A program made the position numbers and the translations under genes. The notes below the pieces were generated by a model. It was not told the origin of the DNA. It saw only the letters and a list, made by a program, of their open reading frames with translations, and ran no database searches. Shown here piece by piece: positions 18,804 to 25,778 of a DNA stretch of 38,125 nucleotides. Each line of letters starts with the position of its first letter. Within the stretch, counting starts at the first letter, position 1. This stretch comes from Candidatus Woesearchaeota archaeon (lineage in GTDB: Archaea > Nanobdellota > Nanobdellia > Woesearchaeales > ARS49): assembly GCA_016188265.1 (NCBI GenBank), contig JACPID010000005.1:1-38125 (forward strand), read 5' to 3'.

Positions 18804-18962
18804 ATCTTTCAGTTCACAGACTAGCATTTTTAGAAATTGCGTCAAATTGACAAAACGCTCAAAATTTTAGAAAACGAAACTATTGTCCTATAATTTATTT
18901 CGTTTTCTATTATATAACTTATCAGAATATATTTTGTTCTATCAAAATTTATTTAAATGCAA

Positions 18963-19009
18963 ACATACTCTAGTATTTAATAGAGAAATATAACCACAAC
19001 ATATAGTGT
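18963..19009 (+). promoter_or_regulatory. Tandem NrdR boxes flanking the TATA box of nrdR-nrdJ
   Basis: Box 2 (18994-19009, CCACAACATATAGTGT) matches the NrdR consensus ACACWATATATWGTGT at 14 of 16 positions. Box 1 (18963-18978) is weaker (10 of 16). Their centres are 31 bases apart and the gap is 15 bases, the spacing known for paired NrdR boxes. The likely TATA element AAATATAA (18986-18993) lies between them, so bound NrdR would block TBP/TFB. Confidence 0.65.
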
Positions 19010-19057
19010 TTTTATGATGTTACTCTTAAGTGGAGTAAAGTAAATGAGGTGAATGTT

Positions 19058-19519
19058 TTGAGATGCCCTTACTGTCTTCATGAAGAAACAAAAGTTTTGG
19101 ATTCAAGAGTTACTCCAGAACAAGATTCTGTTCGTAGAAGAAGAGAATGTGAAGATTGTTCAAAAAGATTCACAACATATGAGCGTATTGAAGTAAACAA
19201 TATTTCAGTTGTTAAAAAAGATGGTAGAAGAGAGCCTTTTGATAGGGAAAAATTATTGAGAGGAATGCTAAAAGCTTGTGAGAAACGCCCTGTTAAAAGA
19301 GAGCACATTGAAGAGATTGTTGATCAAATTCAAGCGCATTTATTGAAGCTGGACCAGCATGAGATTAAAAGTAAAAAAATAGGAGAGCTTATAATGGATT
19401 CACTAAAAGATCTTGATGATGTTGCTTATGTTCGTTTTGCATCTGTATATAGGCGTTTCAAAGATGCAAACCAGTTCACTAATACAGTAAACATGTTGCA
19501 AAAAATGAAGAATAGGTGA
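19058..19519 (+). CDS. nrdR: Transcriptional repressor NrdR
   Basis: Zinc-ribbon plus ATP-cone repressor that senses (d)ATP and represses ribonucleotide reductase genes. With TTG 19058 as start the protein begins MRCPYCLHEETKVLDSR, the invariant NrdR start; GAGGTGA lies five bases upstream. The GTG at 19049 falls inside that Shine-Dalgarno sequence. The zinc ribbon has CPYC and CEDC; the ATP-cone covers about 48-135 (VVKKDGRREPFDREKLLRGM). The stop codon AGGTGA provides the ribosome site for the next gene. NrdR is mainly bacterial, so its presence with archaeal promoter elements is notable. Confidence 0.95.
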   Translation: MRCPYCLHEETKVLDSRVTPEQDSVRRRRECEDCSKRFTTYERIEVNNISVVKKDGRREPFDREKLLRGMLKACEKRPVKREHIEEIVDQIQAHLLKLDQHEIKSKKIGELIMDSLKDLDDVAYVRFASVYRRFKDANQFTNTVNMLQKMKNR

Positions 19520-19524
19520 ATGAA

Positions 19525-20796
19525 ATGGAGTTGACTTTAGAAAAACAAGAAAGCAAAGATGTTGCAATGCTTAGAGAACAGGAAGTTTTTTTAAGTGATC
19601 AAGCAATTCATGTGTTAAACGGTTCGACGCAGTTTGATGAATTAGGTCGCATGATTTTTTTAGATCGTTATGCACTGAAAGCAAAACGCGACACTATTAA
19701 TGAGGGAGATCTTGTAATTACTATAACACTTGAAGATCCTAAATATCCTAAAAAAGATCTTGGAATTGTAGTTAATATATCAGAAAATTATATTGCTACT
19801 CTTCATATGGTTACAGGAAAGTATTCTTGTTCTGAAGAAAATTATACTTTTAAACAATCTGTTTGGAAATGCAGCAAGCCTCTTGAATCAATTGATGATG
19901 CTTACAAGCGTGTAGCCAGAGCAGTAGCTTCTGTCGAAAATAGTTCTGAAAAGCAAACACAATTGTTCCAAGAATTTTATGAGGAGCTTTCAACAAAGCG
20001 CATTCAGCCGGCAGGAAGAATAATGACTGGTGCAAATGTTAATGATGAAAAACATTATACTTCTAATCTAACTTTATACAATTGTTATGTTATTCCCTGC
20101 CCAAAAGACAGCAGAACAGGCATTGTTGAAACACTTAAGCAAATGATTGAAATAATGTCAAGAGGCGGAGGAGTTGGTATTTCTCTTGCATCATTAAGGC
20201 CAAAATATGCTTATGTGCAGGGAGTTCATGGACAATCTTCTGGTTCAGTATCATGGGGAGGTTTGTACTCATTTGCAACAGGTCTTGTTGAACAAGGCGG
20301 ATCAAGAAGAGGGGCGCTTATGCTTATGCAGGCAGATTGGCATCCTGATGTTCTTGAGTTTATTACTGCAAAGACAAAAATGGGAAATATAGAAAATGCA
20401 AATATTTCTGTTATGGTTTCAGATCGTTTTATGGAATCATTGAAAAAAGATGATGATTGGAACTTAGAATTTCCTGATTATGAATTTCCAGGCTATAAAG
20501 AAATTTACCAAAAAGAGTGGAATGGAGATCTTAAAGCTTGGAAAGAAAAAGGATACCCTATTAGGATATATAAAACAATTAAAGCTAGAGAATTATGGGA
20601 CTTGCTTATAACTTCTGCCTGGAGAAGCGCTGAGCCAGGAGTTGTGTTTATGGAAAGGTATAACAAACTGAGCAATAGTTATTATTTTAATCCTATAATT
20701 TGTACAAATCCTTGTGGTGAACAAGGATTGCCTGGTTGGGGTGTATGTAATTTAGGGCATTTATACTTAGGTGCTTTTGCAAAAAAAAAAAGGTGA
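19525..20796 (+). CDS. nrdJ: Class II ribonucleotide reductase, N-terminal part (frame ends at a poly-A run)
   Basis: First 420-odd residues of an adenosylcobalamin-type ribonucleotide reductase, which makes dNTPs/dNDPs without oxygen. The redox Cys is C187 (LYNCYVI), the radical Cys C397 in TNPCGEQ, and its redox partner C408 in GVCNLG. There is no ATP-cone. The frame ends FAKKKR-stop after 11 A; the reading frame is rejoined at 20780-20791 if one A is removed, giving KKKGEDEQG and a normal class II enzyme of about 750 residues. ATG 19525 follows AGGTGA by five bases. A sequencing indel or +1 frameshift both fit. Confidence 0.85.
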   Translation: MELTLEKQESKDVAMLREQEVFLSDQAIHVLNGSTQFDELGRMIFLDRYALKAKRDTINEGDLVITITLEDPKYPKKDLGIVVNISENYIATLHMVTGKYSCSEENYTFKQSVWKCSKPLESIDDAYKRVARAVASVENSSEKQTQLFQEFYEELSTKRIQPAGRIMTGANVNDEKHYTSNLTLYNCYVIPCPKDSRTGIVETLKQMIEIMSRGGGVGISLASLRPKYAYVQGVHGQSSGSVSWGGLYSFATGLVEQGGSRRGALMLMQADWHPDVLEFITAKTKMGNIENANISVMVSDRFMESLKKDDDWNLEFPDYEFPGYKEIYQKEWNGDLKAWKEKGYPIRIYKTIKARELWDLLITSAWRSAEPGVVFMERYNKLSNSYYFNPIICTNPCGEQGLPGWGVCNLGHLYLGAFAKKKR

Positions 20797-21778
20797 AGAT
20801 GAACAAGGGCCTGTTTACGAGCTTGATTGGGAGCAGTTAAAAAAATCTTCACAAAGACTTACAAGATTTCTTGATAATGTCATTGATTTAACGCCTTATT
20901 TTTTTGAAGAAAATAGAAATAATCAAAAAGCAGAAAGGCGTGTTGGCGGGGGGACTCTTGGTTTAGGGGAGTTATTAATAAAATTACGTGTCAAATACGG
21001 ATCAGATAAATCTATAGATTTAATAGACAATGTTTACAGAACAATTGCTGTTGAAATGTATATTGAATCTGCAAATATTGCTAAAGAAAAAGGGGCATTT
21101 CAAAAATTTGATAAAGAAAAATTTTTACAAAGTGGTTTTATGAATCAAATGCCTGAAGAAGTTAGGGATGCTGTCAGTAAAAATGGCATTAGAAATGTAA
21201 CTTTAACAACTCAAGCGCCTACTGGTACTGTAGGATCAATGCTAGGAACATCAACAGGCATAGAACCCTATTATGCTTTTGAGTATTATAGGCAATCAAG
21301 ATTAGGATTTCATAAAGTAATGATACCTTTAGCTGAAGAATACAAAAAGATTAATGAGCAGTTGCCTGATTTTTTTGCAAGTGCAACTGAACTTGGGCCT
21401 GTAGAACATATTAAAGTGCAAGCTGCAGTTCAAAAATGGACTGATTCTTCAATTAGTAAAACAGCAAATGCTCCTAAAAATTTTGGTTTAGAAGAAACAA
21501 AAGCATTGTATGAACAAGCATATGATCTTGGCTGCAAAGGAGTAACAATATACAGGGATGGTTGTAGAAATGAACAAATTCTTTCAACAAATGAGGATAC
21601 TGAGAAAAAAAATCTTGCATCATCGCATGGCATGTTAGAAAATGATCTTGCAAAAGATATTGGCGCTGAAGCTGGTAAAACCTGCCCTAATTGCCAAAAA
21701 GGAACAATGGTTAAAAGTGGCGGGTGCACAGAATGCTCTCTTGGCTGTGGTTTTACAGGAAGTTGTGATATGAAATAA
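20771..21778 (+). CDS. nrdJ: Class II ribonucleotide reductase, C-terminal part
   Basis: Continuation of the upstream frame in +1. It contains FLDNVIDLTPYFFEE, the phosphate-binding segment APTGTVGSMLGTSTGIEPYY, GCKGVTIYRDG and a Cys-rich tail with C-x2-C (CPNC), then CTEC, C and C, as in B12-dependent NrdJ, where the tail delivers electrons to the active site. The upper GTG start at 20771 is inside the upstream frame and unlikely; the genuine protein is the fusion. Together with the first part it completes a functional-looking enzyme. Confidence 0.85.
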   Translation: MLLQKKKGEDEQGPVYELDWEQLKKSSQRLTRFLDNVIDLTPYFFEENRNNQKAERRVGGGTLGLGELLIKLRVKYGSDKSIDLIDNVYRTIAVEMYIESANIAKEKGAFQKFDKEKFLQSGFMNQMPEEVRDAVSKNGIRNVTLTTQAPTGTVGSMLGTSTGIEPYYAFEYYRQSRLGFHKVMIPLAEEYKKINEQLPDFFASATELGPVEHIKVQAAVQKWTDSSISKTANAPKNFGLEETKALYEQAYDLGCKGVTIYRDGCRNEQILSTNEDTEKKNLASSHGMLENDLAKDIGAEAGKTCPNCQKGTMVKSGGCTECSLGCGFTGSCDMK

Positions 21779-21820: not shown

Positions 21821-23842
21821 ATGATTACTCATAGTGTTAGTTATGTTGTTAAACGCGATGGAAGTACTGTTTTGTTTAATCCTGATAAAATAAGAATTGC
21901 AGTTACAAAAGCATTGCAAGCTGTTGGTAGTGAGAATATTAATATTTCAGAAGAAATAACAAGACAAGTAGTTGAAGAGGTTGAATTAAAGTATATTAAT
22001 AATGCTCCTGCAGTTGAGAATATTCAGGATATTGTTGAAAACGTGTTGATATCAAATGGTTATGCAGAAACTGCAAAGGCATATATTTTATACAGGCAAA
22101 AAAGAAAAGAACGTAGAGAATTAAGAAGTGCGCTTCTTGATGGAAAAACAACAAATATAGATATTTCAGAAAATTCCTTGCTTATTTTCAGAGAACGTTA
22201 TTTATTGAGAGATGAATCTGGAAAAATTAAAGAAACTCCTGAAGAATTATTCAAGCGTGTTGCAAAAGCAGTATCGCGAGCAGAAAAACAAAGCCAAGAA
22301 TTAGAAGTAAAATTTTACAACGTTCTTTCAAATCTTGAATTTCTTCCAAGTTCTCCGACACTTATGAATGCAGGATTAATTTCTCAACAATTATTTCCAG
22401 CATTTGCACTGCCTGTTCCAGATGAACTTGAAGGAATATATGAAACATTAAAAAATGCAGTAAAAATTCACAAACTTGGAGGCGGGACTGGGTTTAATTT
22501 TAGCAATATTAGGCCTAAAAATGATTTAGTTAAAAATTCTTGCGCAATTGCTGTTGGGCCAATGGCAGTAATGAATGTATTTGATAATGCTCTTGGAACA
22601 GTTTTACAAAATGGAAAAAGACAAGGCGGAAACATGGCAGTTTTACGGGTCGACCACCCTAATATTATGGAATTTATCACTCTTAAAGAAAAAACAGGAG
22701 GTATGAATAATTTTAATCTTTCTGTTGCAATAACTGAAGAGTTTATGAATGCTGTTGAAAATAATGAAGTAATTGCTTTGCGCAATCCTAATTCAGGGGT
22801 TATAACACAAAATGTTCCTGCGAAACAAATATTTGATTTGCTTGTACTAATGGCTTGGCGTACAGGAGATCCAGGGGTAATATTTATTGATAGAGTAAAC
22901 TCATCTAATGCAAATCCATTGCCAGATTTGTATAGTATTGAAACAACAAATCCTTGCGGTGAACAACCATTGTATCCTTATGAAGCGTGCCCTTTTGGGT
23001 CTATTAATTTATCAAAAATGATTGTTAATGGAAGAATTGATGTGCAAAAGCTTAGAGAAACTGTAAGAGTATCAACTTTTTTTTTAGACAACTTAATTGA
23101 TATTAATATGTATCCATTAATAGAAACTGAAAGAATTTGCAAACAAAACAGAAGAATAGGATTAGGAGTGATGGGTTTTGCTGACTTATTATTTGAATTA
23201 AAAATACCTTATGATAGTGAAGAAGGTGTTGAAATAGGCAGAAAAATTATGCACATAATTTCAAAAGAAAGCGAGCAATCATCACAAAAAATTGCTGAAG
23301 AAAAAGGCGTGTTTCCAAATTTTGAAAAAAGCATATATGCAAATGGAGTTATGTTGAGAAATGCATCTAGAACAACAATCTCTCCTACAGGAAGTATAAG
23401 CGCATTAGCAGACTGCAGTCCTGGCATCGAGCCAGTTTATGCTCTTTCTTTTGTAAAAAAAGTGCTAAATGGTAAAGAACTTCTTTGTGTGAATCAGTAT
23501 TTTGAAAATGCTCTTCGCGAAAGAGGATTATATTCTGAAGATTTAATGAAAAAAGTTGCCCAGTTTGGAAGTATTCAACATATGGAAGAAATACCTCAGG
23601 ATATTAAAGATGTATTTAAAATAAGCCATGATATTAATCCTTTTTGGCATGTACGCATGCAGGCAGCATTTCAAGAATTTACAGATAATGCAATAAGCAA
23701 AACAGTTAATTTTCCAAACATGTCAACAACAAAAGATGTGGCAGATGCTTACATGCTAGCTTATAAATTAGGTTGTAAAGGAATAACAATTTATCGTGAT
23801 GGAAGTAAAGATTTTCAAGTATTAAATGTCAAAAAATATTAA
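21821..23842 (+). CDS. Second class II ribonucleotide reductase-like protein with ATP-cone, missing a redox Cys
   Basis: A 673-residue paralogue. Residues 8-97 form an ATP-cone (VVKRDGSTVLFNPDKIRIAV), the overall-activity switch. The radical site is intact: N377, C379 and E381 in TNPCGEQ; C390 (YEACPFGS) is also present. However, the position of the first redox Cys, normally in QLSACFVLP, reads QLFPAFALP, with A194. The protein ends KGITIYRDGSKDFQVLNVKKY without the Cys cluster seen in NrdJ. So the usual disulfide relay cannot work. It has its own TATA-like box (about 21790-21799). It could use another reductant, have another function, or be regulatory. Confidence 0.88.
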   Translation: MITHSVSYVVKRDGSTVLFNPDKIRIAVTKALQAVGSENINISEEITRQVVEEVELKYINNAPAVENIQDIVENVLISNGYAETAKAYILYRQKRKERRELRSALLDGKTTNIDISENSLLIFRERYLLRDESGKIKETPEELFKRVAKAVSRAEKQSQELEVKFYNVLSNLEFLPSSPTLMNAGLISQQLFPAFALPVPDELEGIYETLKNAVKIHKLGGGTGFNFSNIRPKNDLVKNSCAIAVGPMAVMNVFDNALGTVLQNGKRQGGNMAVLRVDHPNIMEFITLKEKTGGMNNFNLSVAITEEFMNAVENNEVIALRNPNSGVITQNVPAKQIFDLLVLMAWRTGDPGVIFIDRVNSSNANPLPDLYSIETTNPCGEQPLYPYEACPFGSINLSKMIVNGRIDVQKLRETVRVSTFFLDNLIDINMYPLIETERICKQNRRIGLGVMGFADLLFELKIPYDSEEGVEIGRKIMHIISKESEQSSQKIAEEKGVFPNFEKSIYANGVMLRNASRTTISPTGSISALADCSPGIEPVYALSFVKKVLNGKELLCVNQYFENALRERGLYSEDLMKKVAQFGSIQHMEEIPQDIKDVFKISHDINPFWHVRMQAAFQEFTDNAISKTVNFPNMSTTKDVADAYMLAYKLGCKGITIYRDGSKDFQVLNVKKY

Positions 23843-24572: not shown

Positions 24573-25778
24573 ATGGCAGTGATTAAATTTGAAACAATAA
24601 ATTTTCAAAAATGTGAAGAAAGTATTAAAGGAATTTTTTTAAAAACTCATGAATTCATTATTAAACACTCTGATCTTGAAAAAATTGGAAACTACATTGT
24701 TGAAAACAAAGATTTGTTATTTCCTGATAAAAAACAAGAATTTGTTGATCGCAAATTCTCACTTTTGCTTGAAGAAGCTTTTAAAAATTTAAAAAATAGA
24801 GTTACAAAAAAACCTGCTTTGTATGTTCATAGAAACAGTGGAATACCTCTTATTGGAAATATTGCTTTTGGCGTTCTTGATAGAGGCACAAATATTATTG
24901 AGATTAGGCCTATAAGTGGTTGTAATATTCGGTGTGTTTATTGTTCAGTAAGTGATGATGCTCGTGTTCGGGATGTTGTTGTAGAACGAGAGTATTTGGT
25001 TCAAGAATTTAAAAAGCTTGTAGAATTCAAAAAGACCAGCGCAATTGAAGCTCATATTGCAGCGCAAGGAGAACCTACACTATATGGTGAGCTTGTAAGC
25101 TTAATTCAGGATTTAAGTTGTATTTCTGAAGTTGGTACAATTTCCATTGACACAAATGGTACATTGCTTAATGAAATTTTTATTGATGAGCTTATTAGTG
25201 CTGGTTTGACTAGATTTAATTTTTCTTTAAATTCAATGGATGAAGAAACTGCAAAAAAGATTGCAAATGCAGGTTATAATCATAAACGTGTTTTAGGCAT
25301 GATCAAATATATTAGCACGCGAGCAGAATTAATAATAGCTCCAGTTTTGGTTCAAGGCTGGAATGATAAAGAAATGAGCAGTATTATTGAGTTTGCAAAA
25401 AGTTTGAAAAATGAAAAATTTACTCCAAAAATTTGTATTCAAAATTATTTGTATTATAAGTATGGTAGAAATCCTGCAAAACAATTGTCTTTTGAAGAGT
25501 TTTATAAAATGCTTGAAAATTTGGAAAAAAAACATTGTGTGAAATTAATTGTTAGCAAAGAAGATTTTAAAATCGAGAAATTACCTACTTTAGAAAAACC
25601 TTTTAAAAAAGGCCAAACAATTGAAGCTGAAATTGTAGGTGAAGGAAGATTGCCTAATGAAAAACTTGCAGTAGCTAAAGAAAGAGTTATTTCAGTTATT
25701 AGTTCTTTGCAAAGAAAAAAAACACATATTAGTATAACTCGTTCTAAACATAATATTTTTTATGGAGTAGCAAAATAA
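24573..25778 (+). CDS. Radical SAM protein with C-terminal TRAM domain
   Basis: A 401-residue iron-sulfur enzyme. The cluster motif CNIRCVYC holds C117, C121 and C124; the GEPT-type motif AAQGEPTLYGE follows. The C-terminal 55 residues (GQTIEAEIVGEGRLPNEKLA) form a TRAM RNA-binding domain. An archaeal radical SAM family with TRAM is likely (COG2100-like from memory), with RNA modification as the probable job. Substrate unknown. It starts 73 bases from the divergent membrane-protein gene. Confidence 0.85.
   Translation: MAVIKFETINFQKCEESIKGIFLKTHEFIIKHSDLEKIGNYIVENKDLLFPDKKQEFVDRKFSLLLEEAFKNLKNRVTKKPALYVHRNSGIPLIGNIAFGVLDRGTNIIEIRPISGCNIRCVYCSVSDDARVRDVVVEREYLVQEFKKLVEFKKTSAIEAHIAAQGEPTLYGELVSLIQDLSCISEVGTISIDTNGTLLNEIFIDELISAGLTRFNFSLNSMDEETAKKIANAGYNHKRVLGMIKYISTRAELIIAPVLVQGWNDKEMSSIIEFAKSLKNEKFTPKICIQNYLYYKYGRNPAKQLSFEEFYKMLENLEKKHCVKLIVSKEDFKIEKLPTLEKPFKKGQTIEAEIVGEGRLPNEKLAVAKERVISVISSLQRKKTHISITRSKHNIFYGVAK

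Follow-up and report, generated by a model that had tools for sequence, protein, structure and literature searches.

Ribonucleotide reductase (RNR) is, to our knowledge, usually treated as an enzyme with an unchangeable three-cysteine active site. In class I and class II RNRs a Cys pair reduces the substrate and is regenerated through C-terminal Cys residues, and the roles of the radical Cys, the Asn, the Glu base and the redox pair in these enzymes are established knowledge. The window analysed here (the whole 38,125-nucleotide stretch of archaeal DNA) encodes a 673-aa protein which departs from this plan, and the question raised by the locus is what an RNR does once it has lost parts of its electron-delivery system and kept the Cys that starts the radical reaction. 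The features of the gene are the following:

21821..23842, + strand: class II RNR paralogue, 673 aa, without the first redox Cys and the C-terminal Cys tail (open frame, profile matches, AlphaFold2 model)
21842..22111, + strand: ATP-cone, residues 8-97 (PF03477, E 4.5e-23)
22346..22357, + strand: apical phosphate-binding loop P-S-S-P, residues 176-179, of the diphosphate (PNSP) type (motif definition, PMC8365446)
22400..22402, + strand: Ala194 (GCA) replacing the first redox Cys, i.e., the Cys of LSACFVVPV in Thermotoga maritima NrdJ
22949..22963, + strand: finger loop N377-P-C379-G-E381, in which C379 is the radical Cys (alignment and direct reading; invariant in 143/143 relatives)
22988..22990, + strand: second redox Cys, C390, kept but now partnerless (alignment and direct reading)

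Profile searches of the 673-aa protein revealed an ATP-cone, an RNR all-alpha domain and an RNR barrel, with matches to PF02867 (437 bits) and PF00317, and TIGR02504 (NrdJ_Z, adenosylcobalamin-dependent RNR; cut-off 400 bits) scored 640 bits. A predicted structure was used for the fold comparison (AlphaFold2, mean pLDDT 89, pTM 0.86), and its top PDB matches are T. maritima NrdJ. Both sequence and fold thus mark the protein as a class II RNR, and, judging by its sequence, it is a duplicated NrdJ-type copy with a defective electron-delivery system, one of many such in its archaeal class. Among the residues of a working reductase, N377, C379 and E381 are present, and a complete redox Cys pair and the C-terminal Cys residues are missing. 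The earlier note, made from the letters of this DNA, had described the finger loop and C390 as present, the first redox Cys as replaced by A194 and the C-terminal Cys cluster as absent, and our analysis bears out each of these readings: the finger loop and C390 can be read directly; LFPAFALPV aligns without gaps on LSACFVVPV of T. maritima NrdJ (PDB 1xje) in the phmmer alignment, a placement also recovered in the 143-protein alignment; no other Cys lies within 10 residues of A194 in the sequence alignment; and the roughly 12 residues beyond YRDGS contain no Cys, where tailed relatives have 2-11 Cys at the C-terminal end of the 143-protein alignment. Since both the first redox Cys and the tail are missing, the protein, as predicted from these sites, cannot run the known disulfide cycle, as had also been concluded before. 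A sequencing or assembly error at codon 194 might be suspected given the homopolymer frameshift in the neighbouring NrdJ gene (see below), but it is extremely improbable, because either Cys codon would need three substitutions to become GCA and because neighbouring conserved sites are altered too (V196A, S245V, S249A); moreover, the tail is also missing.

Relatives of the 673-aa protein were collected at E <= 1e-150, a threshold that favours conserved copies, and an order-wide search of 288 genomes together with locus retrieval yielded 143 aligned proteins, mostly from one archaeal order. Most of the genomes appear to be many-contig draft assemblies, and the tree was a quick maximum-likelihood one. 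We call a copy crippled if it has lost at least one of C194, N377, E381 and C390; on this definition 48 relatives are crippled, 16 are tail-less with all four residues and 79 keep everything. The crippled state requires 14 changes on the tree, at least 13 of which are forced by well-supported branches. Losses affect C194 (21/143 rows, 10 changes), N377 (44/143, 13 changes), C390 (28/143, 13 changes) and the C-terminal Cys tail, which is missing in 61/143 rows (13 changes) and absent from nearly all crippled copies. Residue 381 is Glu or Asp in 46 of the 48 crippled copies (two changes for E381), and position 379 is Cys in all 143 relatives, every crippled one included, with no change on the tree.

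The losses do not follow a single pattern. The nearest homologues (G019 and G003, 56% identical) are intact and Cys-tailed, so that close relatives with both the Cys and the tail, to which the earlier note had looked for evidence against its reading, do exist. Sister lineages lack other residues: Asn became Gly and the second Cys Thr in G024, and in G016 the first Cys became Ile, Asn became Ser and the second Cys Ala. Both redox Cys residues and the Asn are gone in several lineages (patterns SSCEG, SDCDG and ISCEA), and one clade of 12 proteins has the altered motif TDSCGE in common. The proposal that the Ala substitution would be conserved in relatives did not survive the alignment; Ala194 is private to this gene and lineage G027, other relatives lose different residues, and we rejected it as a signature. 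Beyond this order, the class yielded three further crippled copies, each of which retains the radical Cys, and no degeneration was seen among the genome-contig relatives checked outside this class. Spread by viruses was likewise rejected: a scan of viral contigs gave 4 distant loci, and the closest one read from the scan is intact.

Two unusual arrangements were observed during the survey. Family f62 (L162, L168, L172, L174, L176, L184, L185, L192) consists of tail-less NrdJ proteins with an intact Cys pair and NQC in place of NPC; an adenosyltransferase gene directly adjoins them and a large NrdJ gene mostly does, and these NQC copies are possibly an intermediate state. At L181 (944-6740, genome G110) three consecutive NrdJ-type genes are all tail-less and have intact active sites.

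What the crippled copies keep is informative as well. The tailed set has 99 positions conserved at >=96%. Crippled copies hold this level at 46 of them, among which are C379, D201 and, in the distal phosphate loop, P522 and G524. Relaxed positions are concentrated at 194-196, 377-378 and 390-394, with further ones at 180, 221, 245, 249, 267-268 and elsewhere. Nearly all crippled copies have a PNSP-like or P-x-G-R motif as their apical phosphate loop, the element that determines specificity for di- or triphosphates (PMC8365446). Comparison of close crippled pairs, taken alone, gave dN/dS values of 0.10, 0.058 and 0.073; by their codon substitutions the crippled copies are evidently under purifying selection. 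Taken together, the kept sites, the phosphate loops and the low dN/dS mark these as working proteins in which the radical Cys and, most likely, nucleotide binding have been retained. A redundant copy turning into a pseudogene would account for lost residues that differ by lineage and cluster at the active site, but we consider this quite improbable, as close crippled pairs have dN/dS of 0.06-0.10, the 673-aa frame is full-length and open at 44% divergence from its nearest relative, C379 is never lost and the 12-protein clade holds its TDSCGE motif.

Given this, we tentatively favour, at a little less than even confidence, the reading that crippled copies are adenosylcobalamin (AdoCbl)-dependent radical enzymes which no longer run Cys-pair reduction. 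They would still bind both AdoCbl and a nucleotide in di- or triphosphate form, the Cys at 379 would become a thiyl radical that removes a hydrogen from the ribose, and the reaction would then spare the Cys pair, e.g., as a redox-neutral rearrangement or elimination; deoxynucleotides would be supplied by the other RNR of the same genome. Retained radical chemistry is favoured because C379 stayed invariant through about 13 independent losses around it, and among the three guesses of the earlier note it is other radical chemistry that this invariance strengthens. Loss of the radical residue, as expected of a pseudoenzyme, was found in none of the 143 relatives. The kept C379 could alternatively be structural, or the lineages could be young, and more decayed copies without C379 could escape a survey at our E-value threshold. 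For 28/36 crippled copies an adenosyltransferase gene is found no more than 1.5 kb away, in some cases with the other RNR not nearby; as a specific mark of crippled copies this linkage was rejected, since intact relatives show it too (35/61). The only cobalamin adenosyltransferase gene (cobA) found in the genome of the window is on contig C3, and its absence beside the gene of the 673-aa protein counts against the radical-enzyme reading. With rather more hesitation, we suggest that a B12-dependent thiyl-radical group acting on nucleotides with no net reduction may have evolved repeatedly on the RNR scaffold in DPANN-like archaea, with the present gene as a lightly altered member; no description of such a set of crippled RNRs was found in the open-licence full-text papers searched.

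The kept residues also bear on whether the 673-aa protein might be a real RNR in which formate, a small thiol or a separate protein takes over as reductant from the Cys pair and the tail. N377, E381 and C390 are all kept in it, 16 tail-less relatives have all four active-site residues, and class III RNR lacks one Cys of the pair and uses formate (PMC4390871). In class III RNR, however, the second Cys is the missing one and the first is present, the reverse of the 673-aa protein, and the lineages with SSCEG, SDCDG and ISCEA have lost both Cys residues and the Asn; furthermore, all well-assembled genomes with a crippled copy contain a second RNR, so that nothing indicates the crippled copy as a source of deoxynucleotides. 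Hence, the reductant switch, another guess of the earlier note, has lost ground and we regard it as unlikely, and it fits the 673-aa protein alone better than its relatives. In the profile search for class III RNR (NrdD), PF13597 matched neither the 673-aa protein nor anything else in the genome.

The remaining guess, a regulatory partner of an adjacent complete NrdJ, turns on the company of the gene. Upstream of it the window holds:

18994..19009, - strand: NrdR-box-like site with 2 mismatches, 40 bases before nrdR (motif match)
19049..19519, + strand: nrdR repressor gene, Zn-ribbon and ATP-cone, the first gene of the cluster (TIGR00244, 205 bits)
19516..20796, + strand: adjacent NrdJ, N-terminal part, 426 aa, with LYNCYV, NPCGE, GVCNLG and a PAGR loop, without ATP-cone
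20771..21778, + strand: adjacent NrdJ, C-terminal part, 335 aa, with the Cys tail CPNC..CTEC..C
20781..20791, + strand: A11 run where both NrdJ frames meet (frameshift or assembly error)

The neighbour had been described as complete, yet as sequenced it is split (19516-20796 and 20771-21778), with frames that meet at the A11 run. Its orthologue in G016 is one 758-aa ORF, to which the two halves align end to end (65-71% identical), and the break is either an assembly error or true frameshifting. The adjacent NrdJ belongs to a different subfamily from the 673-aa protein; its phosphate loop is PAGR (triphosphate type) and that of the 673-aa protein PSSP (diphosphate type). The genome (923,817 bases, 98% complete) encodes a TATA-binding protein, which identifies it as archaeal; it contains three RNRs, and the complete one is the third, an intact RNR on contig C3 (L007:1572-3695) which cobA adjoins. 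Within 18960-19049, ahead of the archaeal nrdR, the NrdR-box-like site is preceded by a second weak palindrome (ATACTCTAGTAT), at a distance of about 31 bases, as is usual between NrdR boxes. A 401-aa radical-SAM-like protein (CNIRCVYC) is encoded at 24573-25778, on the strand of the 673-aa protein and downstream of it, past two short opposite-strand genes.

The co-occurrence with a complete RNR anticipated by the earlier note was found across the survey: 45 of the 48 genomes with a crippled copy have another RNR, as do 24/24 of those at least 90% complete. The three genomes in which no second RNR was found are 73-89% complete, and the second copy in G199 is a fragment. Among genomes of tailed intact relatives a second RNR is present in 14/35, and phylogenetically independent pairs gave 5.4 for and 0 against the association with crippled copies (median p 0.06). 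In every partner RNR with readable sites the Cys pair and NPC(G/A/S)E are present; some partners have inteins there and some are partly covered. In G243, G284 and G289 (L235, L251, L252) the apparent inteins of the complete partners lie right after the radical Cys (TNPC followed by VA..).

Crippled copies could be regulatory or structural subunits, forming mixed oligomers with a complete NrdJ and lending it an ATP-cone and an effector site, with the partner reducing through its own tail; we hold this, the strongest competitor of the radical-enzyme reading, to be quite conceivable, though on balance doubtful. Besides co-occurrence, the arrangement of ATP-cones suits such a role. In about 31 pairs, the cone is present in the crippled copy and absent from the partner in about 15 and present in both in about 7; all 9 cone-less crippled copies have a coned partner, and no pair lacks the cone in both members (Fisher p 0.0008, few clades). 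In the window, the 673-aa protein has the cone and the adjacent NrdJ does not. Class II tails and active sites can also act in trans (Loderer 2017, PMC5704485), and dead paralogues that activate a partner are known, as in the AdoMetDC prozyme (PMC5201418). Crippled and complete genes are often neighbours too (22/36 against 9/61 for tailed intact copies, Fisher p 4e-6), but this linkage is not significant with phylogenetically independent pairs (median p 0.6), and adjacency of the genes was discarded as a proof that they are partners. Of the nine 'RNR' neighbours counted for tailed copies, at least that of G176 gave no match to the RNR barrel and is perhaps a different ATP-cone protein; at L202 of this genome a 788-aa protein beside NrdJ has an ATP-cone and no match to the barrel.

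A regulator, moreover, would need neither an invariant radical Cys nor a near-invariant carboxylate, and the phosphate loops of the two window proteins differ. Partner RNRs fall into at least five subfamilies which swap within close clades, so every swap would call for a new interface, and the idea that the 673-aa protein must pair with the subfamily of the adjacent NrdJ is weakened accordingly. In G181 the neighbour RNR is of another subfamily than in the rest of its clade, with no change in the evolutionary rate of the crippled copy, which argues for a function of its own, as the radical-enzyme reading would have it.

About a third of the relatives examined, mostly from one archaeal order, thus break the three-Cys rule, by at least about 13 changes, and the direction of loss is always alike: the electron-delivery parts go and the radical-starting Cys stays. 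Such repeated loss of the electron-donating parts suggests that an old enzyme has taken on a new task. The crippled copies form a natural series separating the residues that RNR needs for radical initiation from those needed for reduction only, and they could be a lead to nucleotide chemistry not yet known, or to control of class II RNR through heteromers. Genome annotation labels these genes reductases, probably wrongly, and the label needs care.

Of the known systems, the dimeric class II RNR of T. maritima (PDB 1xje/3o0o) is alike in fold (Foldseek TM 0.77/0.83, 35% identity) and has the radical Cys, the Asn and Glu of NPCGE and the second redox Cys in common with the 673-aa protein, which differs from it by Ala for the first redox Cys, the missing Cys tail and an added N-terminal ATP-cone. 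The contig C3 NrdJ, with its orthologues in relatives, is 47% identical and alike in domain order and ATP-cone but, unlike the 673-aa protein, has SACFVLP, ESC, the tail GGCPGLECVV and cobA adjoining. Formate-dependent class III RNR shares the incomplete active-site Cys pair and the ATP-cone; it uses a glycyl radical and the second Cys is the absent one, where the 673-aa protein has lost the first. The C370A variant of Stackebrandtia nassauensis NrdJ is, similarly to the 673-aa protein, a class II subunit with an active-site Cys changed to Ala, a laboratory mutant that is inactive alone and donates its tail in trans (PMC5704485); the natural 673-aa protein, by contrast, has no tail to donate. 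Finally, betaherpesvirus R1 homologues such as M45 keep the fold of the RNR large subunit and have lost catalytic function, M45 being described as catalytically inactive, without an R2 partner and with host-protein-binding functions (PMC12282084). Unlike M45, the crippled copies have an invariant radical Cys and a complete RNR in the same genome.
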